Below, one piece after another: positions 4,071 to 20,035 of a stretch of 64,000 nucleotides of DNA. The position numbers and the translations under genes were made by a program. The stretch spans positions 229,820 to 293,819 of the forward strand of contig MTMB02000001.1 in assembly GCA_002011085.2 (NCBI GenBank), read 5' to 3'. This DNA comes from Candidatus Geothermarchaeum rappei (GTDB taxonomy: Archaea > Thermoproteota > Nitrososphaeria > Geothermarchaeales > JDFR-13). The notes below the pieces were generated by a model that did no database searches, was not told the origin of the DNA, and saw nothing but the letters and a program-made list of their open reading frames with translations. Position 1 is the stretch's first letter. Each line of letters starts with the position of its first letter.

Positions 4071-4207
4071 GTTATATCAATTCTATAATTAGTGATGATA
4101 GTTTACTAGTTAAAGGGATCTCGAGATTCTATCGATATTAAATGATTAAACAATAAAAAACTCAGTTCAATTGAGATATATTAATAAAAATACCTTGACA
4201 TATAAAA

Positions 4208-4699
4208 TTAGTCCTCGTATATTCCTCCTTTGTGGCATTTGCTACATAACTGATAAGTGGTTTTTGGTTGGTGTGGGTTGTGGCATACTGTGCAGGGTTG
4301 TGTCCCGAATTCTTCCTCTGTATAGTGGATCCTGTGGTATTGGCTTTTCGTGAGCATCTCGTCATAGGAGTGGCATTTTAGGCAGTCATCGTATTTTGCG
4401 ATTTTCCCACTATACTTCTCCCTAATTTCTGTCGAGTTAGGGTTGTGTGTTATGTAGACTATGAACTCATTCACTACTCCGGGTGTGAGCTCGTGGCATA
4501 CGTGGCAGTTGTATTCTCCGTGTTCCGTAGCCGATATCTCCTGTACGAATGGCGTCATGCTGTGGCAGGCCTGGCATGTGGAGTTGGCCCCTGGGTCTGA
4601 GACTATGTAGCCATAGACGCCTACAGCGGATAATACGACTATCGCCAAGGCTATCAATAGGATTTTTACTTTGGTGGTGAGCTTTAGACCCTGTTTCAT
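4208..4699 (-). CDS. Membrane-anchored pentaheme c-type cytochrome (NapC/NrfH-like)
   Basis: Five CXXCH haem-binding motifs are visible at residues 42-46, 65-69, 106-110, 136-140 and 152-156. An N-terminal hydrophobic helix (about residues 11-31) should anchor it outside the membrane. Such proteins pass electrons from the quinone pool to extracytoplasmic reductases. At 163 residues it is close to NapC/NrfH proteins, which usually have four haems. No reductase subunit or cytochrome maturation gene is adjacent, so the partner is unknown. It stands alone on the minus strand and starts with ATG. Its GC content is higher than the island to its left, so the island boundary appears to lie just before it. 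Confidence 0.85.
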   Translation of the reverse strand: MKQGLKLTTKVKILLIALAIVVLSAVGVYGYIVSDPGANSTCQACHSMTPFVQEISATEHGEYNCHVCHELTPGVVNEFIVYITHNPNSTEIREKYSGKIAKYDDCLKCHSYDEMLTKSQYHRIHYTEEEFGTQPCTVCHNPHQPKTTYQLCSKCHKGGIYED

Positions 4700-4838
4700 A
4701 CCCTATAATACTCATTACAACCATGATTCTTATAAAGAATACAATGGCCCAGCCTATTCCCCACTGTATATCCAAAACACCTTGGTGTTGATATGTTTAG
4801 AAGCCTCGTAGAATATTATTTTTCTTGGTGGATGTTTT

Positions 4839-5102
4839 ATGGAGGATGTATTATACTGTCCATTATGCGGCTATCCCCTATCCATGGTGCACAGATATGA
4901 TGGTGAGACCCTTCTAATCGACATCGGCTGTGAAGACCATGCTGATGATGAGTTCACCCTCCACATAAAGATACCGTTGAAGCAGGAGGAGATAGAGTTG
5001 TTTGAAGAAGGCGATGTAATAACTAAGAAGGCTGTTATCGAGGTTATAGCAGTCAGGCCTGAACCCGATTATGACGAGGACTATGGTGAGGAGCTGGAGT
5101 AA
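4839..5102 (+). CDS. Small acidic protein with N-terminal CPLCG motif
   Basis: An 87-residue protein of unrecognised family. It begins with YCPLCGYPL, a zinc-ribbon half-site, and has a second Cys/His cluster (GCEDHAD) about 25 residues later that could complete a metal site. The C-terminal third is strongly acidic, with a DYDEDYGEELE tail. ATG follows a GGTGG ribosome site. It is monocistronic between the divergent cytochrome gene and a regulator gene. Function unknown. Confidence 0.6.
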   Translation: MEDVLYCPLCGYPLSMVHRYDGETLLIDIGCEDHADDEFTLHIKIPLKQEEIELFEEGDVITKKAVIEVIAVRPEPDYDEDYGEELE

Positions 5103-5184
5103 CACGGGGCCTAAAGCATCTATAATATGCCTGTGATGTGGGGGATTCTATAGCCTAGGCCCTGGTATATGCTGGTTTACACGG

Positions 5185-5197
5185 GTTAGAATTAAAT
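5185..5197 (+). promoter_or_regulatory. Promoter element shared by two paralogous regulator genes (copy 1)
   Basis: The 13-base string GTTAGAATTAAAT lies 39 bases before the ATG at 5237. The same string recurs at 6404-6416, 35 bases before the paralogous gene. It fits an archaeal BRE/TATA element or a shared operator. Confidence 0.55.
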
Positions 5198-5236
5198 TCT
5201 CATGTCCCAAATAATCTATTTGAGGTATATCGGGTA

Positions 5237-5653
5237 ATGGCTGCTGAGAAGTCCAGCGTCTCCCACCCCCTGAGGATAAGGATACTGGAGGTTTTATCAG
5301 CTAACCCCATGGGTTTCGAGGAGCTTAGGGAGAAGCTGGGTATAGAGACGACTATGGAGCTCGAGAATCATCTTAAGGAGCTCACAGGCCTAGTCACCGT
5401 AGACGCCTACGGCAACCTCGTCCTGACGGGAAAGGGATACGCCGCTCTAGACATGATCCTAGCCAAGAAAGTAGCCCGTATATACCTGAGGTCCTATCTA
5501 GTCAACTTTATAATCTATCTCCTCCTAAACATCTACACGTATTTCTTCATGAATGAATACTGGCTACCCGTTGTATTTCCAATTACAACGGTCTGGCTAC
5601 TCTTCTACACATACTGGGCCATAATAAGGAGGCGTATATTCAGACCGATGTAA
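5237..5653 (+). CDS. ArsR-like winged-helix regulator with two C-terminal membrane helices (paralog 1)
   Basis: Residues about 5-75 form a winged helix-turn-helix of the ArsR/archaeal type (SHPLRIRILEVLS, then GFEELREKLGI, then a wing GNLVLTGKGYAAL). Residues about 90-130 hold two hydrophobic helices ending in RRRIFRPM, so the DNA-binding domain should sit on the cytoplasmic face of the membrane. The 139-codon gene is close in length and sequence to the gene at 6452-6871. The two flank a TudS-like desulfidase gene and share the same upstream 13-mer, so they may regulate it or each other. The signal sensed is unknown. Confidence 0.75.
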   Translation: MAAEKSSVSHPLRIRILEVLSANPMGFEELREKLGIETTMELENHLKELTGLVTVDAYGNLVLTGKGYAALDMILAKKVARIYLRSYLVNFIIYLLLNIYTYFFMNEYWLPVVFPITTVWLLFYTYWAIIRRRIFRPM

Positions 5654-5769
5654 CTAGGCATAGAGAATACATTGTGTGTCAAGGGCCTCCCCATATGGAT
5701 ACCCTATTCTATAAGGTGTAAAGCTTATTGAGCCACACCCCATTCTTATCATATTTATGGTGGTTTGAC

Positions 5770-6330
5770 TTGGAGGATTCCCGAAGCGGTAAAATCGTGG
5801 TAGTATCCCACTGTATCCTAAACGTCCACTCGCTTGAAGACGGCCTAGCCATATACCCGGGGATGGAGGAGGATATAGTCAAGATACTTGTGGAGAAGGG
5901 CGTGGGCATATATCAGATACCGTGTCCCGAGACATATATCATGGGTATATTCAGGCAGCCCCTTCCAAAAGACCCATATGACAAGCCCCAGATCAGGGAG
6001 AGGTTCAGGAGCCTCGCCAAGGAGATCGTCGACCAACTCCGGTGGTATAAGAAGAAGGGATATAGCATAGTCGCTGTATTGGGGGCTGAGGGAAGCCCGA
6101 CCTGCGGCATAAACAAGGTGGGGAGGTGGAAGGACCCGGTTAAGAAAGGCAGGTTCCCAGACGACGTCATATTCGTGGAGGGCATGGGCGTCTTTATGGA
6201 GGAGTTCAAGAAGCTACTGGAGGAGGAAGGCATCAATCCAGTGTGGATAGGTATCCCAGGTAAATCCCTACGCTCCCTAGACCCATTCATATTCGAGGAG
6301 ACGCTTGAGAAGCTGAGGAAACTACTTTAA
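5770..6330 (+). CDS. TudS-related putative desulfidase (DUF523-like)
   Basis: The protein matches the TudS-related/DUF523-like group: SHCILN near residue 13, GLAIYPG, GVGIYQIPCPE near 45 and GAEGSPTCGINK near 105. Three cysteines (C15, C52, C112) are placed to bind a [4Fe-4S] cluster as in TudS, which removes sulfur from thiouracil. The substrate here is unknown. The TTG start at 5770 is preferred over an earlier TTG at 5728 because GGTGG lies six bases before it and the upstream residues do not look like the family. It sits between two paralogous membrane-anchored regulators in the same orientation. Confidence 0.7.
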   Translation: MEDSRSGKIVVVSHCILNVHSLEDGLAIYPGMEEDIVKILVEKGVGIYQIPCPETYIMGIFRQPLPKDPYDKPQIRERFRSLAKEIVDQLRWYKKKGYSIVAVLGAEGSPTCGINKVGRWKDPVKKGRFPDDVIFVEGMGVFMEEFKKLLEEEGINPVWIGIPGKSLRSLDPFIFEETLEKLRKLL

Positions 6331-6403
6331 CAGATATACTTCCGTCAAGGTAACTCTTCACTATATGGCTGGGTCAACTACTCTTGACCAGGTGGTCAAC
6401 TGC

Positions 6404-6416
6404 GTTAGAATTAAAT
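6404..6416 (+). promoter_or_regulatory. Promoter element shared by two paralogous regulator genes (copy 2)
   Basis: An exact repeat of the 13-mer GTTAGAATTAAAT found at 5185-5197. Its distance to the ATG at 6452 (35 bases) matches that of the first copy and supports the 6452 start over an upstream TTG/ATG. Confidence 0.55.
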
Positions 6417-6451
6417 CCCCGGATCCAGATTATTCTCTATGGGGTTGTGTC

Positions 6452-6871
6452 ATGAATAGCGAGAGTTTCGAGGCGATTTCCCATCCACTTAGGATAAGGA
6501 TACTCCGAATCCTCTCGAGGAAGCCGATGGGCTTCGCTGAGTTGAAGAGGGAGCTGGGTATAAAAAGCAGTGGGAAACTGGATTTCCATCTTAAGAAGCT
6601 CAAGAACCTAATCACGTTGGATGAACATGGAAACTACACGTTAACTAGGGATGGATACGCTGCGTTGGAGGCGGTCTCTACAATCGATAAATATGGCTGG
6701 CAGAAGAGGGCATATATCCTAAACCTAATACTCTATATCATCATCAATCTCTACACCTCCATTACATCATACAGCCTCTGGCTAACCATTGTATTCCCAT
6801 TATCCACGGTATGGATCGTATTCTACAGCTACTGGTCAATTGTCAAGAGAAGGATCTTCAGGGCGTTATAA
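6452..6871 (+). CDS. ArsR-like winged-helix regulator with two C-terminal membrane helices (paralog 2)
   Basis: This 139-residue paralog of the gene at 5237 has the same layout: SHPLRIRILRILS, GFAELKRELGI, a wing ending LTRDGYAALEA, then two membrane helices and a basic KRRIFRAL end. The frame is open further upstream to 6365, but the shared promoter 13-mer lies inside that extension, so the ATG at 6452 is chosen; GGGGTTGTG before it may serve as a ribosome site. It probably arose by tandem duplication around the desulfidase gene. Signal and targets are unknown. Confidence 0.75.
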   Translation: MNSESFEAISHPLRIRILRILSRKPMGFAELKRELGIKSSGKLDFHLKKLKNLITLDEHGNYTLTRDGYAALEAVSTIDKYGWQKRAYILNLILYIIINLYTSITSYSLWLTIVFPLSTVWIVFYSYWSIVKRRIFRAL

Positions 6872-7009
6872 CCCTTGATAGACTGTTAATGGACTGTGTT
6901 TGAATAGGGTTCAGTTTTAAATCCATCCTCATCCTTGTCAATACACGGATGGAAATCAATGGAAAATATAAAATCCTCTCATAGTCATTTCTATGTTTTG
7001 GGTGTGAAA

Positions 7010-7126
7010 ATGTTGAACTTCGGTTTAGCCGAGATAATCATGATATCCATATCAATAGGTATCATCGCATGGATCCTATACTGGGTTAGAAAAGCGGTTG
7101 GAATCCTCGTAGGGAGAAACGACTAA
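7010..7126 (+). CDS. 38-residue single-pass membrane peptide
   Basis: The open frame is longer (from 6935), but a TATA-like AAAATATAAAAT at 6963-6974 lies inside it and GGTGTG precedes the ATG at 7010. From there the product is 38 residues, with one hydrophobic helix (residues about 8-25) and a basic end (VRKAVGILVGRND). No family recognised. A GTG at 7004 is an alternative start. Confidence 0.4.
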   Translation: MLNFGLAEIIMISISIGIIAWILYWVRKAVGILVGRND

Positions 7127-7191
7127 GGGAATGATGCGTGTAGGGAATTATTATAGGGGGGTCTGGAGACAAGCCGATAGATAGTTGGTGC

Positions 7192-8622
7192 CTACTCCAT
7201 ACAGCAGGGCATTCTACCAATATCCCTTATAAACGCTTGGGCCGAGACCTTTATTATCTCCGAGGCCGTGGGGAATACACTGGGTGAATTTATTACATCA
7301 CCTATTTTATATCCATGCCTAATCATTAACGCAGCCTCTGCTATGAACTCTGATGCATTTGGAGCCAGTACGTGGAAGCCTTTGACAACGCCGGTATGAG
7401 GGTCGACAATGAGTTTTGCAACACCCTTCTCCATGCCTATGACACCCGCCTTTGCTAGGGAGCTGAAGCTAACCAGTCTACACTGGCATGCACCAACCTC
7501 CTTAATCACATCCACTTCTCTAACGCCTACAAACCCTACTTCAGGGTCGGTGAAGACCGCTACTGGAATATGGCTATGATCCACACTAGTTTTATCGCCA
7601 TATACAATATTCTCCGCTGCAATAGCCCCTTCTCTAGCTGATATAGTCTCCAATAAGGCTGGTTTAGATGTCGATGATACGTCGCCAGCCGCATAGATAT
7701 CTGGGTTACCTGTCTTAAGATGCCTATCTACAATAACCCTACCTACTTCATCTACCTTTACACCTGCTTTCTCAAGGAGAAGCCCATCTGTGTTAGGCCT
7801 CCTCCCCGTGGCTATAAGCAGTATATCAGCGGTTACACGCCTCACTTTATCATCATGTGAGACCCAGGCCTCAATATATCCATTCCTCTTATCCACCCTT
7901 GTGATCCTCGACCCTAGCCGTATATCAATTCCCTCATCAACCAATATCTCCCTCAATTCATCCGATATCTCCGGCTCTGTAGCTGGTATAATCCTATCCA
8001 ATACCTCAACTATAGATACCTTCACCCCCAGCCTGGAGAAGGCCTGCGCCAGCTCTAGGCCTATTGGACCTGCACCCACTATGAGCATACTATCAATATC
8101 CCTATCTAGGCTCCAAATGCTATCTGAGGTATGGTATTCAACTGACTCCAAACCAGGTATATCCGGTATAGCTGGTCTAGAGCCGGTGGCTATCAGGATC
8201 TTTCTCCCCCTTATTATCAGCTCATCGATATCCTCTACAACAACCTCATGCGGCGATCTGAAATAGGCTTTTCCAATTATGTGGTCTATATTGTCGAACT
8301 TCGTGAGAAGGTCTTCATACTTTCCTCTCCTCATATACTTAACCAAGTTCCTAACGTTTTCCATAATCCTCTTGATATCCAGGGTAGTGGGATCTATCTC
8401 AACACCAGGTATATCAATACTCCTGAGTCCATGTATCTCCTTAGCTATATAGAGTAATCGTTTAGATGGGATACATCCCACATTTACACACGTGCCTCCA
8501 AGGGGACCGTGGTTAATCAATGCTATACGGCTTTCTCCACCAGTCAACTCAGAGTACCTTACTGCCGCGGAGAATCCAGCGGCTCCCCCTCCTATAATTA
8601 CTAAATCATAGTCTTTAATCAA
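7192..8622 (-). CDS. merA: MerA-like mercuric(II) reductase (flavin disulfide reductase family)
   Basis: An FAD/NAD(P)H pyridine-nucleotide disulfide oxidoreductase of about 476 residues. The FAD-binding GGGAAGFSAA is at the N-terminus, the redox disulfide GGTCVNVGCIPSK near residue 42, a second Rossmann motif GAGPIGLELAQAF near 180 and GDV FAD contact near 310. The C-terminus ends in MPCCME, a vicinal Cys pair at the place where MerA has its mercury-delivering CC. Dihydrolipoamide dehydrogenases lack that pair. The N-terminal NmerA domain is absent, as in several archaeal MerA proteins. The TTG at 8622 is chosen because GGTGAT is five bases upstream; an earlier TTG at 8628 is too close to it. 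No mer transport genes adjoin; ArsR-like regulators are nearby. Confidence 0.75.
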   Translation of the reverse strand: MIKDYDLVIIGGGAAGFSAAVRYSELTGGESRIALINHGPLGGTCVNVGCIPSKRLLYIAKEIHGLRSIDIPGVEIDPTTLDIKRIMENVRNLVKYMRRGKYEDLLTKFDNIDHIIGKAYFRSPHEVVVEDIDELIIRGRKILIATGSRPAIPDIPGLESVEYHTSDSIWSLDRDIDSMLIVGAGPIGLELAQAFSRLGVKVSIVEVLDRIIPATEPEISDELREILVDEGIDIRLGSRITRVDKRNGYIEAWVSHDDKVRRVTADILLIATGRRPNTDGLLLEKAGVKVDEVGRVIVDRHLKTGNPDIYAAGDVSSTSKPALLETISAREGAIAAENIVYGDKTSVDHSHIPVAVFTDPEVGFVGVREVDVIKEVGACQCRLVSFSSLAKAGVIGMEKGVAKLIVDPHTGVVKGFHVLAPNASEFIAEAALMIRHGYKIGDVINSPSVFPTASEIIKVSAQAFIRDIGRMPCCME

Positions 8623-12718: not shown

Positions 12719-13934
12719 GGGGGACTTCCCCATCCTTGATAGAATCGTGAATGGACATAAACTGGTTTACTTTGATAATGCGGCTACTACCCAGAAGCCT
12801 ATACAGGTTATCAATGCAATCGTAGACTACTATAAGTTCCATAATAGTAATGTCCATAGAGGTGTACATACACTTTCTCAGGAGGCTACTGAATTATATG
12901 AATCCGCGCATGAGGAGGCCGCCAAGTTCATTGGGGCCGAGGGCCTCGAGGAGATCGTCTTCGTAAAGAACACGACTGAAGCCATAAACCTAGTGGCCTA
13001 CTCCCTAGGTATGTGGAGCCTAGAGCCTGGGGATGAGGTGGTTATCACAGCCATGGATCACCATAGTAACATTGTCCCATGGCATTTGATGTCTGAGCTA
13101 AAGGGCTTTAAACTACGGATAGTCCGTGTAAAGCAAGACGGGACTCTGGATCTCGAGGACCTCGCCGATAAGGTATCGAGTAAGACACGTATCGTCGCCG
13201 TGCCCCACGTATCCAACGTCCTGGGGGTTGTAAATGACGTTAAATCCATCGCTAAAATTGCTCATGAAGTAGATGCACTGATACTTGTGGATGGAGCCCA
13301 GTCAGTTCCACATATGCCGATTGATGTTAGGGACCTCGATATAGATTTCCTAGCGTTCTCCGGCCATAAGATGCTTGGGCCAACAGGTATAGGCGTATTA
13401 TATGGTAGGAGGGATATCCTCGGGTCCATGAGGCCATTCCTAGGCGGTGGAGACATGATAAGCGAGGTCCATAGTGATGTGGAGACAGGTAAATGCACGA
13501 TCACATATAATGCCCCGCCTTGGAGATTTGAGGCTGGGACGCCTAATATAGCTGGGGCAGTCGGGCTTGCCGAGGCCATTAGATACCTTAGGAATATTGG
13601 TATGGAGAATGTCCTACTGCATGAACGTGACTTGGTTGAATACACGCTTAGGCGTATGGAGGAGCTTGGTAAGACACATGTATATGGTCCCAGGGATCCC
13701 GGTAAGAGGCTTGGAGTCGTGTCCTTCAATGTGGAGGGACTTGATTCTCATGAGACGGCGATGATGCTTGATAGCTACGGCATCATGGTTAGAAGCGGGC
13801 TGCACTGTGCACAGCCACTTCATGAGACACTATCTATCCAGACTACCACAAGGGCCAGCTTCTACATCTATAATACCCGTGAGGAGGTGGATAGGTTTAT
13901 CGAGGCTCTTAAGGAGATTGAGATGGTGGCGTAG
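12696..13934 (+). CDS. sufS: Cysteine desulfurase, SufS (group II) type
   Basis: Second PLP-dependent desulfurase. It has the SufS signature FDNAATTQKP near the N-terminus, NTTEAINLVAYS, a PLP lysine in SGHKMLGPTG and the catalytic Cys in RSGLHCAQP. About 412 residues, the usual length. The GTG at 12696 is chosen because GGTGGGGGT lies before it; the frame is open to ATG at 12672 but that has no better ribosome site. SufE/SufU-type partners are normally required; the adjacent IscU may serve. SufBCD genes are not in the window. Confidence 0.85.
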   Translation: MIDLERIRGDFPILDRIVNGHKLVYFDNAATTQKPIQVINAIVDYYKFHNSNVHRGVHTLSQEATELYESAHEEAAKFIGAEGLEEIVFVKNTTEAINLVAYSLGMWSLEPGDEVVITAMDHHSNIVPWHLMSELKGFKLRIVRVKQDGTLDLEDLADKVSSKTRIVAVPHVSNVLGVVNDVKSIAKIAHEVDALILVDGAQSVPHMPIDVRDLDIDFLAFSGHKMLGPTGIGVLYGRRDILGSMRPFLGGGDMISEVHSDVETGKCTITYNAPPWRFEAGTPNIAGAVGLAEAIRYLRNIGMENVLLHERDLVEYTLRRMEELGKTHVYGPRDPGKRLGVVSFNVEGLDSHETAMMLDSYGIMVRSGLHCAQPLHETLSIQTTTRASFYIYNTREEVDRFIEALKEIEMVA

Positions 13935-13936
13935 CC

Positions 13937-14200
13937 ATGTTAGAAGAGTATATTGCTAAGATAGAGAAGCTATGCGGCGCTAAAAACGACTATGTAATCC
14001 TCCTAAAATACAGCTCTAAGAATGAGGCTATTGAGAAGATACTGGGTAACGTGGATAAGATCGAGCTTAAGACCGGTGTGATGAAGAAGGCTAGGCATAG
14101 GGGGAAGGAGATAAGGATATTCACGACAGGCAAGCTCATAATTAAGGATGCCGCTGACGAGGATGAGGTTAAATCGATTTTAGAGGAACTATTATCCTAA
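13937..14200 (+). CDS. Conserved-looking small protein at the end of the Fe-S operon
   Basis: An 87-residue alpha/beta protein, start ATG two bases after the sufS stop, so translationally coupled. Basic middle (KKARHRGKEIRI) and a short acidic C-terminal helix (DEDEVKSILEELL). One Cys (C13). No family recognised. Its position as the last gene of the desulfurase/IscU operon suggests a sulfur- or Fe-S-related role, but nothing in the sequence proves it. Confidence 0.55.
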   Translation: MLEEYIAKIEKLCGAKNDYVILLKYSSKNEAIEKILGNVDKIELKTGVMKKARHRGKEIRIFTTGKLIIKDAADEDEVKSILEELLS

Positions 14201-14254
14201 TTTAAAACGGATATTTGGGACCCCATTCAATGTATATACCTTGTTTTTGGAAAA

Positions 14255-14266
14255 ATTTTTATATCC
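14255..14266 (+). promoter_or_regulatory. TATA box upstream of the saccharopine-dehydrogenase-like gene
   Basis: ATTTTTATATCC preceded by purine-rich GGAAAAA (BRE-like). It lies inside an upstream extension of the downstream frame, which supports the later start at 14346. Confidence 0.45.
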
Positions 14267-14345
14267 CTTCACCATAATTCCTTCTTCAGACGCCAATGGG
14301 GCTGAACTAATTCCTGGCCCTCACCACGTCCATGGTGATCTAATT

Positions 14346-15497
14346 ATGAGGATTGTTGTACTTGGAGCAGGTAGAGTAGGTAAGAGGATAGTGGAGGATC
14401 TAGTCGAGTATTATAAGGATATTGATGAGGTGGTTGTGGGAGACATCTCCCTGGAGAGGGCTGAGGCCGCTGCCAAAGCCGATCCAGAGCGTGTAAAGCC
14501 GGTTAAGGCTGATGTAACAGACAGAGAATCGCTACACAATGTTCTTAAGGGCGCCGACGCGGTTATAAACGCCACATTCTATGGGCTGGCGATGAACGTC
14601 ATCAACGTCGCCCTAGAGCTTAGGATACCCTATACCGACCTGGGTAGCTCACTATACAGGACGAGCCCGAGGTTCATCGAGGCAGGTGTCCCAGCTGTGA
14701 TAGACACTGGAGGCGCGCCTGGCCTGATAAATATGCTCTCCAAATACCTGGTGGAGCGGATGTCCAGCGTAGAATATATCCATCTCTATGACGTGACTAT
14801 CGAGACCAAAGGCCCTAATATCACCGCACCAATTAGATGGAAGTACTCGATTGAGACGATGCTGGACGAGGCTATCATGGATGTAATTATATACAGGGAT
14901 GGGGAGTTCATAAAGACAAGGCCATTTACAGGAATTGAGGAACGCGTGTTCCCTGAGCCCATTGGAAAGGCTAGGGTATTCCACATATTCCATCCCGAGG
15001 TGGAGACACTGGCCAAGACATTCGCAGACAAGGGTATTAAGGAGGTATGGTATAAGATCGATGCATTCAGCCTTCCATGGGAAGAAGGCATGAAATGGCG
15101 TCTCCTAGCAGACCTAGGCCTGGCGGAGACGAGGGAGATTGATGTGGATGGCGTCAAGGTATCTCCTAGGAAGGTCCTCCTAACCCTCCTGAAGAACATA
15201 CCCGATGCATGGGAGGGTTGGGAAGGCTATGAAATGCTCCAGTCAGTGGCTAAAGGCGTCGTCGACGGCGAGCCTGTGGTAGGTGAGGCGACTGCAATAG
15301 CACACATCACCTGGAGGAGCGGCTCAACCCTAACAGCATGCCCAGCATCCATAACCGGCTACTGGCTTGCAAAGGGGATACTGGATAAACCCGGGGCCTA
15401 TCCAGTGGAGCAGGTTATGGATACCGATATGTTCTTCAAGGAGATGGCTAGGAGGGATGTCCAGCTGCTATATACATTCCACAAGTACATTGTATAA
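14346..15497 (+). CDS. Saccharopine dehydrogenase family oxidoreductase
   Basis: NAD(P)-binding Rossmann domain at the N-terminus (MRIVVLGAGRVGKRIV), VINATFYGLAMNVI, a TGGAPGLINMLSKYL loop and a C-terminal domain as in saccharopine dehydrogenase/carboxynorspermidine synthase-like enzymes. About 383 residues, the usual size. The ATG at 14346 is chosen because a GGTGATC ribosome site precedes it and the TATA box lies within the longer frame that begins at 14241. The substrate cannot be read from sequence: lysine or polyamine metabolism are both possible. It is monocistronic or followed by aroK with its own promoter. Confidence 0.7.
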   Translation: MRIVVLGAGRVGKRIVEDLVEYYKDIDEVVVGDISLERAEAAAKADPERVKPVKADVTDRESLHNVLKGADAVINATFYGLAMNVINVALELRIPYTDLGSSLYRTSPRFIEAGVPAVIDTGGAPGLINMLSKYLVERMSSVEYIHLYDVTIETKGPNITAPIRWKYSIETMLDEAIMDVIIYRDGEFIKTRPFTGIEERVFPEPIGKARVFHIFHPEVETLAKTFADKGIKEVWYKIDAFSLPWEEGMKWRLLADLGLAETREIDVDGVKVSPRKVLLTLLKNIPDAWEGWEGYEMLQSVAKGVVDGEPVVGEATAIAHITWRSGSTLTACPASITGYWLAKGILDKPGAYPVEQVMDTDMFFKEMARRDVQLLYTFHKYIV

Positions 15498-15527
15498 AGC
15501 CTTTTCTTAATTTCCACTATCCAAATC

Positions 15528-15537
15528 CTTTTTAAAA
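15528..15537 (+). promoter_or_regulatory. TATA box of the shikimate kinase gene
   Basis: CTTTTTAAAA, about 30 bases before the ATG at 15567; spacing implies a leaderless or nearly leaderless transcript. Confidence 0.5.
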
Positions 15538-15566
15538 GGTTATTTTTTAGCAAGAACGTATTTTAT

Positions 15567-16445
15567 ATGATGAAGGGAATAGAGGTTCTTGGACACGGTT
15601 CACTACCATTTATAAGCGGATTATCTAGTGGATATGCGGCGGCAATGGGTATCGCCCTCCCCCTCAAGATACATATAGAGACTGTACCTGATTCCCATGA
15701 TGTTGAGTTCGTCGTCATGGGCGAGTGGGATAGGGATACCAAGCTTATCGACAGGATTAAGAAGGACTTCATAAATAGATACCTTAGTAAAAAGAATTTC
15801 GGGCTTAAAATTAAGATAGAGTCGTCTATACCTGCTAATGTAGGGCTTAAAAGCGGGGCCTCAGTAGCTGTATACACGATATTTGGAGTAGCCCAGATAC
15901 TGAATCTCCCTCTCTCTGAGAACGATATAATCCATATTGCTATGAACATATCCCGGACGTCAGGATCCTATCTCCTCGGCTCTCTAGAGGGGATATATGC
16001 ATCCTTCAAGGGAGGAGTTGTCTATACCGATAATATGGGTGGTAGGGTAATATCGTGGTTTACGAATGTCCCTGACTGCTCGATAGTAATAGGGTATAAG
16101 CCTAGGGCCTATGAGAATCTCTTCCACACCACCCGTGAGATCAGGAAATATGGTGAGCTATTTAAAAAGATATTTGACGTGGGTCAGAAGGGTGGGCATC
16201 TAAAGGCTGTTACCCTAAACGGCCTTCTATTCTCCCTATTGACGAACATGGATTATGAGGTTCTTGTGGAGACGCTGAGCAGAGGGGCTGTAGCAGCAGG
16301 CATCGCTGGCACGGGACCCAGTATATCGATCTTCACCAAGCATGATGATGTAGACCACTTTAAGGAACTTCTATCTAGCAAGGGCTATAAAGTCCTTGTT
16401 ACACAGCCGACGACAAAAGGCTGTTCCTTTAACTATATTGATTAG
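15567..16445 (+). CDS. aroK: Archaeal shikimate kinase, GHMP superfamily
   Basis: Phosphorylates shikimate at the 3-hydroxyl in aromatic amino acid synthesis. Archaea use a GHMP kinase, unrelated to bacterial AroK. Key signs: the phosphate-binding IPANVGLKSGASVAV near residue 90, TSGSYLLGSLEGIYASFKGG near 133, KAVTLNGLLFSLL near 210 and AAGIAGTGPSISIF near 240, all in the order of MJ1440-type enzymes. 292 residues, normal length. It has its own TATA box 30 bases upstream. Other shikimate genes are not adjacent. Pantoate or homoserine kinase were considered, but the C-terminal motifs favour shikimate kinase. Confidence 0.8.
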   Translation: MMKGIEVLGHGSLPFISGLSSGYAAAMGIALPLKIHIETVPDSHDVEFVVMGEWDRDTKLIDRIKKDFINRYLSKKNFGLKIKIESSIPANVGLKSGASVAVYTIFGVAQILNLPLSENDIIHIAMNISRTSGSYLLGSLEGIYASFKGGVVYTDNMGGRVISWFTNVPDCSIVIGYKPRAYENLFHTTREIRKYGELFKKIFDVGQKGGHLKAVTLNGLLFSLLTNMDYEVLVETLSRGAVAAGIAGTGPSISIFTKHDDVDHFKELLSSKGYKVLVTQPTTKGCSFNYID

Positions 16446-16506
16446 ATCCCTTCTCCCCCATTTCCAAAAATTTTTTCAAAATATTTTGAAGCTTCAATCA
16501 AAAGCC

Positions 16507-16516
16507 TCTATTATAA
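16507..16516 (+). promoter_or_regulatory. TATA box of the HerA-like/RecA-like operon
   Basis: CTATTATAAG centred about 28 bases before the ATG at 16541, the spacing expected for a leaderless first gene. A T-rich stretch at 16471-16478 just upstream can end the aroK transcript. Confidence 0.45.
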
Positions 16517-16540
16517 GGGGTTTCCAACCGTCTTTTAGTG

Positions 16541-17797
16541 ATGAAGGCCATAGCCTCCCTATCAGATGTAGACATGCCTAGGCTTAAGATCGGGGATAAT
16601 GAGTTTAGAGGCGGGATACTATTCATAGGAGACTATAGAGACCCAGTTATCAGAGACGTCGTAGATATAGCTGTCGAAAAAGGATATACCCCGATTATCT
16701 ACGATCTTATGGGTCTCTGGAGGCCGGGCGACTTCAAAACTGGCTTTGGAAACCCGGTTATGGGCATCGATCTACTTCCAAACCCGTTTGAGCCACCTAG
16801 CCATATCCCCCTCCCCCTCTATACAGAGATACTGGAGACTGCTATAGACGCCTCTCTATCTCTACTGGGCCATAGAGGTATGGGGTGGAGACTCGTCTTC
16901 AGAGACTTCATAAACATTGTCTTTGAGAGGGAGGGGGGTCTAGATATCCATAGGATGTTATCAAGTCTAGAGGTGTTCCGCAACGAGTCCACGGGCCTCG
17001 AGAAACAGGCCTATACAATGCTACTAGGGATATTGAGGAGCCTATTCCCTGAGAAGCAGCGGCATCTATTCTCAGCAGACTCAACTATAGACTACAGTAT
17101 TCTAGAGAATTCACCGATGATAATAGACTACTCGATGATAGACCAGTTTTCACTGAGGATATTCACATATTTAATAACGGTCCTCCCAAGCCTACTATAT
17201 AGGAGAGGAGGTAGGACGCTGCATCTACTCTTCGAGTACAGCCACTATGTGGATAAAGGCCTGGTCAACCTACTTCTACAACGCGATAACCTAGCGGCTT
17301 ACAACAACTATCTAATGATCCACTCCCGTAGCCTCACCCAGATGCATCCCAGGGTATCAACAGTTTTCGTATCCAACATATACCTTGGCAACATATATAG
17401 ATATATCCTCCCCCAGATAGGCTTCTTCCCACCGCCTGACTCGACGCACCACTTCATCAGCCAAGGCATAGCCATACCAGTTAAATCATCTGGAGGTCTA
17501 AGCAGCTCAACACAGCTTCATAGGGCTTCTCCAGATGAAGTGGATGCGGAGCCTAGGATACTTGAGGAGATTATTAGACCGATTCTCGAGAGGGTGAGGG
17601 ACCATGGCCCAATCGGTGTAGAGGGTATATACCTCTATTTCCAGGGTTTCCCTAGGAGCGATGTATACTCAACCGTGGAGTGGCTGTGGAGAATGGGGTA
17701 TCTGAGGAAGGCTGTTGAGGGCCGTAGGGAGGCGTTTAGGATAACGGTGAAGGGCCTGATGTACCTAAGAGATGGAGGTGAGAATAATGAGTCTTGA
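16541..17797 (+). CDS. Degenerate HerA/VirB4-like ATPase homolog with C-terminal winged helix
   Basis: The order of motifs resembles HerA/FtsK/VirB4 pumping ATPases: a strand-loop-helix start (GGILFIGDYRDPVIRD), TPIIYDLMGLW where these ATPases have the sensor of bound nucleotide, then LLPNPFEPPSHIPLPLYTEIL, a helical stretch, PMIIDYSMIDQF, and TLHLLFEYSHYVD where Walker B (normally a DEAH-like end) is expected. The Walker A GxxGxGK[ST] is absent: DYRDPV stands in the loop. Residues about 340-419 look like a winged helix (GVEGIYLYF...YSTVEWLWRMGYLRK). So it is probably a non-hydrolysing relative; this is inference from motif order. First gene of a four-gene operon. Confidence 0.5.
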   Translation: MKAIASLSDVDMPRLKIGDNEFRGGILFIGDYRDPVIRDVVDIAVEKGYTPIIYDLMGLWRPGDFKTGFGNPVMGIDLLPNPFEPPSHIPLPLYTEILETAIDASLSLLGHRGMGWRLVFRDFINIVFEREGGLDIHRMLSSLEVFRNESTGLEKQAYTMLLGILRSLFPEKQRHLFSADSTIDYSILENSPMIIDYSMIDQFSLRIFTYLITVLPSLLYRRGGRTLHLLFEYSHYVDKGLVNLLLQRDNLAAYNNYLMIHSRSLTQMHPRVSTVFVSNIYLGNIYRYILPQIGFFPPPDSTHHFISQGIAIPVKSSGGLSSSTQLHRASPDEVDAEPRILEEIIRPILERVRDHGPIGVEGIYLYFQGFPRSDVYSTVEWLWRMGYLRKAVEGRREAFRITVKGLMYLRDGGENNES

Positions 17798-18785
17798 GAG
17801 GTTCCTATTAACCTCTGTACCAAAGTTAAATGAGGTCTTTAGAGGAGGCCTTGGTGAGGAGAGCCTAATCCATATATACGGGCCGTATCAGTCTGGGAAG
17901 ACCCTATTGATATTCCAGCTGATCTATGAGCTTGTAACGAAGGGGTATGGAAATGCTCTCTACATAGATACGGAGGCATCGTTTAAGAACAACTTCTCTA
18001 GTGAGATGAGGAAGAGGTTTGAGGAGCGTTTCGGTAAAGGCGTAAACATATTCGATGTAACCATAGAGAGATACGCCTCAAAAGGTAAGAAGAGGAGGGA
18101 GAAGGAGGCTGAGGTAAGGAGGTATTTCGAGGCTATCCTCGACGACCTAGGCCTGGAATATAGTAAGGAGGATCTCTACGACGCGTTAATGGCCTTTCTA
18201 AAGATCATAGAGCTCAAATCAACGAGGAGTAAGCATCCCTCGATCTATGTACTGGACACACTTGATCTCTCCGGCCTACTAAGCATCCTGAATATCGAGG
18301 CCGAGGTCACTAGAGTCGGTGAGAAGACTGAGGTCAAGATTAAGAGGGTTGGAGACCCGTTGTCAGGGGGCTTATCCAAGTTCATAAGGAGCTATAACAT
18401 TAAATTCCTGGTTTTAGACAGCCTTGGGATGATGGTCAAGGGCCTGGCAATCGGGTTAGCTGATCTACCTGCACGCGCCGCCGTCACCAACCTAATTATA
18501 GGCGGGTTAATCAGGCTTGCAAGCAACTACCGCCTAATCATCTTCGCCACAAACCATGAGAGTAGGAATCCTGTGAAGAACTACTACTCCTTCTATGGTG
18601 GGAACCCGATTGGATACGGATTCAAATACTCACTGTACCTTGGTAGGAAAGGCGTCGGCAAGAGAAGCCTGGTTGTGGAGAGGGCGCCTACAATTCCTGA
18701 GAAGTCACTGGTTATCGGCCTAGAGATTAGGGACGATGGTTTTTATCAGGTGATGGATGGGGATGATAAGAAGGGAGGTGGCTAG
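17787..18785 (+). CDS. RecA/RadB-like ATPase with a central insertion
   Basis: RecA-fold core: an N-terminal VPKLNEVFRGGL, Walker A GPYQSGKT (residues 32-39), ALYIDTEASF, and Walker B FLVLDSLG late in the protein. A charged insertion of about 100 residues after ASKGKKRREKEAEVRR separates the halves, unlike RadA or RadB. The ATG at 17787 is preferred because GGAGGTGAG precedes it; it overlaps the upstream gene by 11 bases. Family members bind ATP and usually DNA or a protein partner (recombination, KaiC-like signalling). The neighbour upstream is an apparently inactive HerA-like protein, so this could be the active motor of the pair. Confidence 0.65.
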   Translation: MSLERFLLTSVPKLNEVFRGGLGEESLIHIYGPYQSGKTLLIFQLIYELVTKGYGNALYIDTEASFKNNFSSEMRKRFEERFGKGVNIFDVTIERYASKGKKRREKEAEVRRYFEAILDDLGLEYSKEDLYDALMAFLKIIELKSTRSKHPSIYVLDTLDLSGLLSILNIEAEVTRVGEKTEVKIKRVGDPLSGGLSKFIRSYNIKFLVLDSLGMMVKGLAIGLADLPARAAVTNLIIGGLIRLASNYRLIIFATNHESRNPVKNYYSFYGGNPIGYGFKYSLYLGRKGVGKRSLVVERAPTIPEKSLVIGLEIRDDGFYQVMDGDDKKGGG

Positions 18786-19128
18786 GCTCTTTATATCTGG
18801 ATTAGCTGGATACGTCTCGTCGCGATTCGTATACATAGCTACTGGAGACCCATATATAGGCATGGTGTCTTTCGCCATAGCTTCACTACTTGCATATAGG
18901 TTAATGAGAGTATCGTCATGGATACATCGCCTTAAGATACTGGGACTAATATTGGTTATAGACATTTTCCTAGCTAGACCAGTATACCTCCTCATACCTA
19001 TTATGATACTCATTATCTACATAATGCGTAGAGGTCTTTCATCGATTCATCACCTCCTCTTTTATCTAATGGTAGTCGTGGGGCTGGTTAGGGATGTTGA
19101 GGAGGAAGAGGATACTGGTGTCAAATAG
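18757..19128 (+). CDS. Small membrane protein in the RecA-like operon
   Basis: About 123 residues with four hydrophobic stretches (near residues 10-27, 33-50, 60-80 and 82-106), a basic loop (RRGLSSIHH) and an acidic end (EEEEDTGVK). ATG at 18757 lies 29 bases inside the end of the RecA-like gene; ATG at 18763 is an alternative. Overlap at both ends shows tight translational coupling. No family recognised. It may anchor the system to the membrane. Confidence 0.5.
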   Translation: MGMIRREVARLFISGLAGYVSSRFVYIATGDPYIGMVSFAIASLLAYRLMRVSSWIHRLKILGLILVIDIFLARPVYLLIPIMILIIYIMRRGLSSIHHLLFYLMVVVGLVRDVEEEEDTGVK

Positions 19129-20035
19129 ACTGTGGAAGCTAATTGATTTAGTTAGGCAACTGGATACACAGTATACCCTATCCCTATTCTTCGGTGGGGG
19201 ATCTCTATACTCCACCCTATCCATATTATCAAAAGGAGATATACATTCCAGTCTAAAGAGAGTCGCTGGCCAGGGGATAGACCCTGATAAGACATATATA
19301 GAGGCATATCTTAGGCGGCTAAAATCCTATTGTAGCGTCGCCAGTGATACTGTGGAGTGTTACACCGGGGATCTCCTAGTAATAAACCAGTTTATTCATA
19401 GAGGGGAAACCAGGGTTAGTATATTCAGATTTTGCAGGGATGGGGGTGGAGAAAGGCTGAATCGTATAAAGAGACGTGCCTTGGTAAACAGTGTATTCTA
19501 TGGAGCTCCATTCGACACAAGTCATTATATAGCTGGAGATAGGCTGAGGAGAGTGGTATGGCAGGGTAACGAGGCTATATTAACTCCATCCACCCTACTA
19601 AGCCTCCCAAAACCAATTTTACTATGTAGTGAGATCCCTGAGGCCAAGGCCCTCCTGGAGAGAGCCTCACCAGCATGGTGTTTAATAGAGAGTATCCTGG
19701 GGCCGCTTCTAGACAAGTATCTAGAGTATCCTAGGAGCGAGTCCATGGTTAGAGACCTCGTCCAATACCTATATTCCACGACTAGATCAGCATATGTAAA
19801 TACCCTAGCCACGCTCCTCGATAAGACGCGTGTCATAGGAGACGGGGATGTCAAGCTCCTGATATTCATAGGCTTGTCAATCTACTCAACCGCCTTGAAA
19901 CTACTTCCAGATAGATTACTTGAGGACTATGGGACTCTTGTTGTGGAGAGATGCCGGTATCCTATACCTCTCCCCAGATGGACACTGATCTCATGGAATG
20001 GCTCTAAAGTATCTGTCAGTATACCCTTATCCTAA
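19094..20035 (+). CDS. Unknown soluble protein closing the RecA-like operon
   Basis: A 313-residue protein that starts 35 bases before the end of the membrane-protein gene. It has a glycine-rich patch early on (FFGGGSLYSTLS near residue 32), scattered cysteines and no helix long enough to cross the membrane clearly. I see no known catalytic motif. It ends tail-to-tail with the rhomboid gene, sharing 4 bases. Function unknown; only the operon suggests a link with the HerA-like and RecA-like proteins. Confidence 0.5.
   Translation: MLRRKRILVSNRLWKLIDLVRQLDTQYTLSLFFGGGSLYSTLSILSKGDIHSSLKRVAGQGIDPDKTYIEAYLRRLKSYCSVASDTVECYTGDLLVINQFIHRGETRVSIFRFCRDGGGERLNRIKRRALVNSVFYGAPFDTSHYIAGDRLRRVVWQGNEAILTPSTLLSLPKPILLCSEIPEAKALLERASPAWCLIESILGPLLDKYLEYPRSESMVRDLVQYLYSTTRSAYVNTLATLLDKTRVIGDGDVKLLIFIGLSIYSTALKLLPDRLLEDYGTLVVERCRYPIPLPRWTLISWNGSKVSVSIPLS

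Follow-up and report, generated by a model that had tools for sequence, protein, structure and literature searches.

The alpha, beta and gamma parts of FtsK supply a membrane anchor, a motor ring and a C-terminal winged helix. CedD, which consists of a transmembrane (TM) part, an N-terminal domain and a HerA-like ATPase, is essential for DNA import (PMC11868833), and the facts on Ced and Ted used for comparison here come from that report and from PMC9905601. The present analysis concerns four neighbouring genes, open reading frames (ORFs) 1 to 4, in a stretch of 64,000 nucleotides (the window; positions 229,820 to 293,819 of contig MTMB02000001.1) from Candidatus Geothermarchaeum rappei, an archaeon of the class Nitrososphaeria and phylum Thermoproteota. 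The window is part of a single-contig genome of 1.58 Mb, the closest relatives of which include Candidatus Geothermarchaeota and Candidatus Scotarchaeum otlingeri genomes. The genes represent the Geothermarchaeales form of a three-part module, in which a HerA-type motor with a winged helix, dead as judged from its motifs (H, ORF1), an intact RadA-type ATPase (R, ORF2) and a membrane-anchored partner (T, ORF3 and ORF4) are found together, encoded by genes that usually overlap or abut. This undescribed set of a DNA-pump relative, a dedicated RadA relative and a membrane anchor occurs in many archaea and looks like a DNA machine of the membrane.

An earlier note on the window, made from the letters and their translations, had found no system that the set matches, and it has proved to be neither Ced, Ted, HerA-NurA or FtsK nor a known defence system. 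No description was found in the open-access literature; the module has no name, two of its parts have no protein-family model, and it has no entry among the Ced, Ted, HerA-NurA or defence systems searched. With HerA and the FtsK-HerA superfamily, H shares its fold and full-length motor profile; unlike HerA of the HerA-NurA pair, it lacks a Walker A motif, has a C-terminal winged helix and has no NurA beside it, Pfam and NCBIfam giving no NurA match in ORF1 to ORF4. The earlier comparison with Ced and Ted stands as far as the homology of ORF1 to the CedD/HerA motor and ends there. H belongs to the motor family of CedD and CedB, and the membrane helices and soluble domain of T resemble the CedD layout, whereas no CedA/VirB6 channel or CedA1/VirB2 pilin gene is recognised in the cluster, the dead motor and the membrane part are split, and the cluster includes a RadA paralog. 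Against the CedD model H reached 16 bits in one member, the cutoff being 600. VirB4 and TrwB/VirD4 of type IV secretion are the best structural matches of H, which differs from them in having neither an ATPase site nor secretion neighbours. R has the core ATPase residues of RadA/Rad51 and archaeal RadA paralogs and is near-canonical, with a helix-hairpin-helix, in three families outside the class; in the window's class it differs by an insertion of about 85 residues, by the lack of the helix-hairpin-helix and by being locked to H and T. FtsK/SpoIIIE likewise brings membrane anchor, superfamily motor fold and C-terminal winged helix into one system, but the module is split over several genes, its motor is inactive by sequence, and its ATPase is of another family.

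Gene layout and the HerA-type protein ORF1

The four genes lie on the + strand, and their coordinates and successive overlaps of 11, 29 and 35 bases were reproduced as first described. ORF1 starts with ATG, and a GTG lies 3 bases upstream. The features are as follows.

16507-16516, + strand: candidate TATA-like element TCTATTATAA, read by eye, 25 bases 5' of the ORF1 ATG
16541-17797, + strand: ORF1 (H), predicted pseudo-HerA/VirB4-like protein of 418 residues with a C-terminal winged helix (AlphaFold, Foldseek, profile links to HerA/CedD)
16628-16651, + strand: position of the lost P-loop in ORF1, GDYRDPVI, residues 30-37 (HerA: GxTGSGKS), from motif register, regular-expression search and alignment of 20 orthologs
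17219-17251, + strand: degenerate Walker B position in ORF1, LHLLFEYSHYV, residues 227-237 (model strand 226-231; alignment A9)
17564-17773, + strand: winged-helix domain of ORF1, residues 342-411 (predicted local distance difference test, pLDDT, about 90 there; AspA/MarR-type winged-helix matches)
17787-18785, + strand: ORF2 (R), putative RadA-paralog ATPase of 332 residues (NCBIfam RadA E 6e-15, far under the cutoff; A2 and A8 profiles against RadA/Rad51 structures)
17880-17903, + strand: Walker A of ORF2, GPYQSGKT, kept in 19/19 orthologs
18069-18356, + strand: approximate extent of the ORF2 insertion of about 85 residues that is specific to the family (two-block RadA match with wider spacing; all orthologs)
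18408-18422, + strand: Walker B of ORF2, LVLDS (D211 and S212 invariant in alignment A8)
18757-19128, + strand: ORF3 (membrane part of T), about four hydrophobic helices, 123 residues (hydropathy, 10 orthologs)
19094-20035, + strand: ORF4 (soluble part of T), fast-evolving, of no known family, 313 residues (same position in all relatives whose contig extends there)

All four genes are under purifying selection, with ratios of nonsynonymous to synonymous substitution (dN/dS) of 0.19, 0.04, 0.02 and 0.19 for ORF1 to ORF4 in one close genome pair. A chance origin of the arrangement is excluded, since ten genomes of the order share it, as do most of 36 further genomes of the class, where ORF3 and ORF4 are apparently one gene.

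Searches of Pfam, NCBIfam and PDB sequences gave no match for the motor part of ORF1, and the initial HerA profile match was weak (E 0.07), its alignment falling exactly on the lost P-loop. The AlphaFold model, built on 10 sequences (pLDDT 72; predicted template modelling score, pTM, 0.75), has a RecA-like fold of HerA/VirB4 type with a helical insertion, and Foldseek matched it to VirB4 (4ag6, E 9.7e-7), TrwB (1e9s, E 1e-4) and the HerA of a defence complex (9e-4), the C-terminus matching winged-helix proteins. Profile comparisons led to the same family. Orthologs of ORF1 in family f11 of the class aligned with the HerA of their own genomes at E 4.7e-5 over 250 columns, against 0.052 for the best-scoring unrelated protein and no better than 0.6 for reversed HerA, and geothermarchaeal ORF1 aligned with that of f11 at E 1.4e-6 over 362 columns. 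Furthermore, a 20-member profile (A9) gave E values of 1e-14 to 1e-16 for the motor domain of intact proteins of HerA/CedD type from across the phylum. Model and profiles thus indicate a true HerA/VirB4 fold, as the earlier note had proposed, and not the unrelated one that it had named as a possible refutation.

Walker A was found in none of the 20 ORF1 orthologs by regular expression or alignment, the sole regular-expression match falling inside the winged helix, and Walker B is degenerate within the window's class (LHLLFEYSHYV in ORF1). The weak Walker B and the missing Walker A had both been read correctly from the single sequence, and because the P-loop is missing in 20/20 orthologs, ORF1 is predicted to be a pseudo-ATPase, again as suggested before. 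The window's genome has four intact HerA-family genes elsewhere, one of them, by inspection, beside a NurA-like gene. At L056 24-2484 of that genome, a NurA-like gene and a HerA gene overlap one another.

The RadA paralog and the membrane subunit

ORF2 has the motifs GPYQSGKT, YIDTE and LVLDS; Walker A is present in 19/19 aligned orthologs, and the catalytic glutamate E63 as well as D211 and S212 are invariant. Its match to the NCBIfam RadA model (55 bits, E 6e-15) does not reach the cutoff of 259 bits, and canonical RadA elsewhere scores 409 bits. Among the models against which R was scored, RadA and RadB were best, KaiC and ArlH lower. The ORF2 profile matches RadA structures in two blocks, positions 4-65 and 200-287, which are separated by about 135 residues as against about 50 in RadA, so that the insertion, which the entire family shares, is closer to 85 residues in length than to 100. 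The N-terminal helix-hairpin-helix domain of RadA is absent from R in the alignment of the window's class. Of the 8 genomes checked, all but G413 (74% complete), which gave no second RadA match above the cutoff, encode canonical RadA as a separate, stronger-scoring gene; on this ground ORF2 is taken to be a dedicated paralog and not the canonical RadA of the genome. The earlier label of a RecA-like ATPase with an intact GPYQSGKT and an insertion of about 100 residues is therefore kept for motif and insertion, and amended as to family and length.

The description of ORF3 as a membrane protein agrees with hydropathy across 10 orthologs, which indicates about four hydrophobic helices. ORF4 likewise remains of no recognised family, searches of Pfam, NCBIfam and PADLOC having given no credible match, and its assignment as NurA was rejected for want of a family match. 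No sequence relatives of ORF4 were detectable, even within the window's family, and its counterparts in relatives were assigned by position. In Candidatus Scotarchaeum (L027 11480-12808) the protein in this place has 442 residues, and its C-terminus is reminiscent of a motor strand pattern in degenerate form (CVVIEDRLGVLDNLEEN).

Outside the window's family, R is followed in 35/37 loci by a gene whose single product has both membrane helices and a soluble domain. The position, the length and the number of membrane helices agree with those of ORF3 and ORF4 together, which suggests that the two are halves of a subunit that is one protein in four other families of the class. The earlier treatment of ORF3 and ORF4 as separate genes thus fits the window's family, whereas on positional and topological evidence they take the place of one anchored subunit and are not two independent unknowns. 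An AlphaFold model of T from f11 (pLDDT 86) has four TM helices and an alpha/beta soluble domain; compared with PDB and viral models, this fold gave nothing below E 0.009, the best viral match having a probability of 0.08.

Distribution in the class and phylum

In the window's family ORF1 is present in 10/11 genomes, in each with ORF2 directly next to it, followed by a gene for a small membrane protein and, on contigs that extend far enough, by one in the place of ORF4. True absence from the eleventh, sister genome G001 is unsupported: the ortholog of the flanking kinase is missing there as well, which points to an unassembled locus. A narrow profile (alignment A2) had suggested restriction to one family, which was overturned once G095 was added. 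With the broader ORF2 profile, 46 of the 400 genomes sampled from the class proved to have full-length orthologs, in five families (f1, 10; f3, 5; f5, 3; f8, 1; f11, 27), and families f4 and f10, probably ammonia oxidisers to judge from the number and size of their genomes, gave partial RadA-type matches only. A pseudo-HerA gene adjoins R in 45 of the 46 fetched loci, often with overlapping start and stop. Since the flanking genes differ from family to family, the module itself is the conserved unit; it is ancient and apparently vertically inherited. The conservation of the neighbourhood in Thermoproteota, which the earlier note had proposed to examine, is thus seen in that the genes are kept together, but the tight form occurs only in some families of the window's class. 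At L106 (f8) a RadA paralog and a membrane subunit occur with no pseudo-HerA detected upstream, it being diverged or lost, and three genomes of f11 (G626, G655 and G723) have two or more RadA-paralog copies, for which contamination of 4-8% may account.

Elsewhere in the phylum, the pseudo-HerA profile matched proteins of families f65, f59, f22 and f35 that have no Walker A and carry a C-terminal extension or winged helix. They are encoded beside a RadA-family gene, and, in a rearranged order, a gene upstream encodes a protein that combines membrane helices with a soluble domain; these upstream proteins of f65 and f22 are related to each other (E 1e-4). The pseudo-HerA of one such genome (G444) keeps a Walker B, VLVDEAH, and has no Walker A. 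The RadA-family gene is near canonical RadA in f65 (423 bits), f59 (377 bits) and f22 (354 bits), above the RadA cutoff and, by inspection, with the helix-hairpin-helix kept, and it is strongly diverged in f35; in G444, G419 and G388 it scores weaker than another RadA copy. Among 398 genomes of the phylum, the RadA-paralog profile found full-length orthologs inside the class only, so the partners outside it are distant, and one origin of all module RadA paralogs was neither rejected nor demonstrated by the tree (approximately unbiased, AU, test, p 0.21). A protein of 110-125 residues, related between families at E 0.03 to 2e-4, is encoded between pseudo-HerA and RadA paralog in f65, f59 and f22 (L161 6941-7318, L160 3594-3932 and L152 3445-3777), and in f22 the gene after the module's RadA paralog encodes a short, degenerate RecA-like protein (L159 7149-7676, L152 1936-2613).

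Possible role of the module

The reading favoured here, with somewhat less than even confidence, is that H, R and T form one membrane-anchored DNA-handling complex powered solely by the RadA paralog. T would anchor the complex to the membrane, H would contact DNA through its winged helix and serve as a ring or scaffold unable to burn ATP, and R would be the sole ATPase, its RadA core working on DNA in the manner of the RadA family. The most plausible role would be that DNA, possibly incoming, is received or held at the membrane for recombination, because the parentage of the parts is HerA/CedD (resection or import) and RadA (recombination). Some points weigh against it. The winged helix of H could serve regulation and not DNA tethering; as R of the window's class lacks the helix-hairpin-helix, its binding to DNA is not assured; and ORF3 and ORF4, which are equated with the fused T by position, size and topology, do not detectably resemble it in sequence.

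A diverged DNA importer of Ced type, in which T and H would be a split CedD/VirB4-type protein and R would energise or receive the incoming strands, is unlikely but deserves weighing. CedD has just such a composition and function in import, H is related to CedD-type motors, and T has the TM plus soluble-domain layout in its AlphaFold model; the N-termini of CedD compared with T from outside the class gave a best E of 0.003 among about 78 comparisons, which is a lead only. The motor is dead, however, the channel and pilin genes are not recognised in the cluster, Foldseek does not match T to the N-terminal domain of VirB4, and an intact CedD-like gene is found elsewhere in the window's genome, within a VirB11/pilus-like cluster.

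The combination of membrane helices, a HerA/FtsK-superfamily fold and a C-terminal winged helix, inherited vertically across whole families, would also suit an FtsK-like complex for tethering or segregating chromosomes, split into several proteins and with its ATPase activity shifted to R. This is improbable: a dead motor could not pump DNA, division here probably proceeds by a Cdv cluster (a VPS4-like and three CdvB-like genes), and other families of the class that do without the module still have chromosomes to segregate. It is quite improbable, too, that R is an ATP switch like KaiC or ArlH and the module, with no action on DNA, a sensor or regulator at the membrane. R does score against KaiC and ArlH models and is without a helix-hairpin-helix, and H has a winged helix like those of transcription regulators; but RadA and RadB models outscore those of KaiC and ArlH, R of f65, f59 and f22 lies above the RadA cutoff with a helix-hairpin-helix, and H is related to DNA motors. 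An anti-virus defence system with HerA-like and RecA-like parts is very improbable, for although HerA-like proteins occur in defence systems and R weakly matches PADLOC Mad8 (E 7e-7), neither H nor T has a PADLOC match, no gene is recognised as an effector nuclease or toxin, no match was found in viral contigs, and the chromosomal neighbourhood is stable among relatives, the sole family member without the module lacking the flanking gene too. A viral origin was rejected on the same lack of relatives in viral contigs.

The module makes testable how its carriers in the window's class link DNA to the membrane. It offers a case of a translocase-superfamily member that has lost its ATP site and is seemingly paired with a RadA paralog. 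That a HerA/VirB4-type ring turned pseudo-enzyme and driven in trans by a dedicated RadA paralog constitutes a new archaeal membrane DNA machine, which may be ancestral within Thermoproteota, with living lineages still showing how the motor ATP site was gradually lost and the RadA partner diverged ever further, is possible but doubtful. The pseudo-HerA of G444, with Walker B kept and Walker A gone, may be a living intermediate.

Since the window's genome has separate Cdv-like and VirB11/CedD-like clusters, neither division nor pilus-type transport obviously needs the module. Both lie at L192 (G000:C1:1188500-1208400). At 4168-8613 of this locus a VirB11-like ATPase, TadC-like membrane proteins, a pilin-like ORF of 64 residues and an intact CedD-like ATPase, which matches NF053655 below the cutoff of that model (E 4e-49), form a possible separate pilus or DNA-transport cluster, and at 13851-17411 a run of one VPS4/CdvC-like and three CdvB-like genes forms a probable Cdv division cluster.

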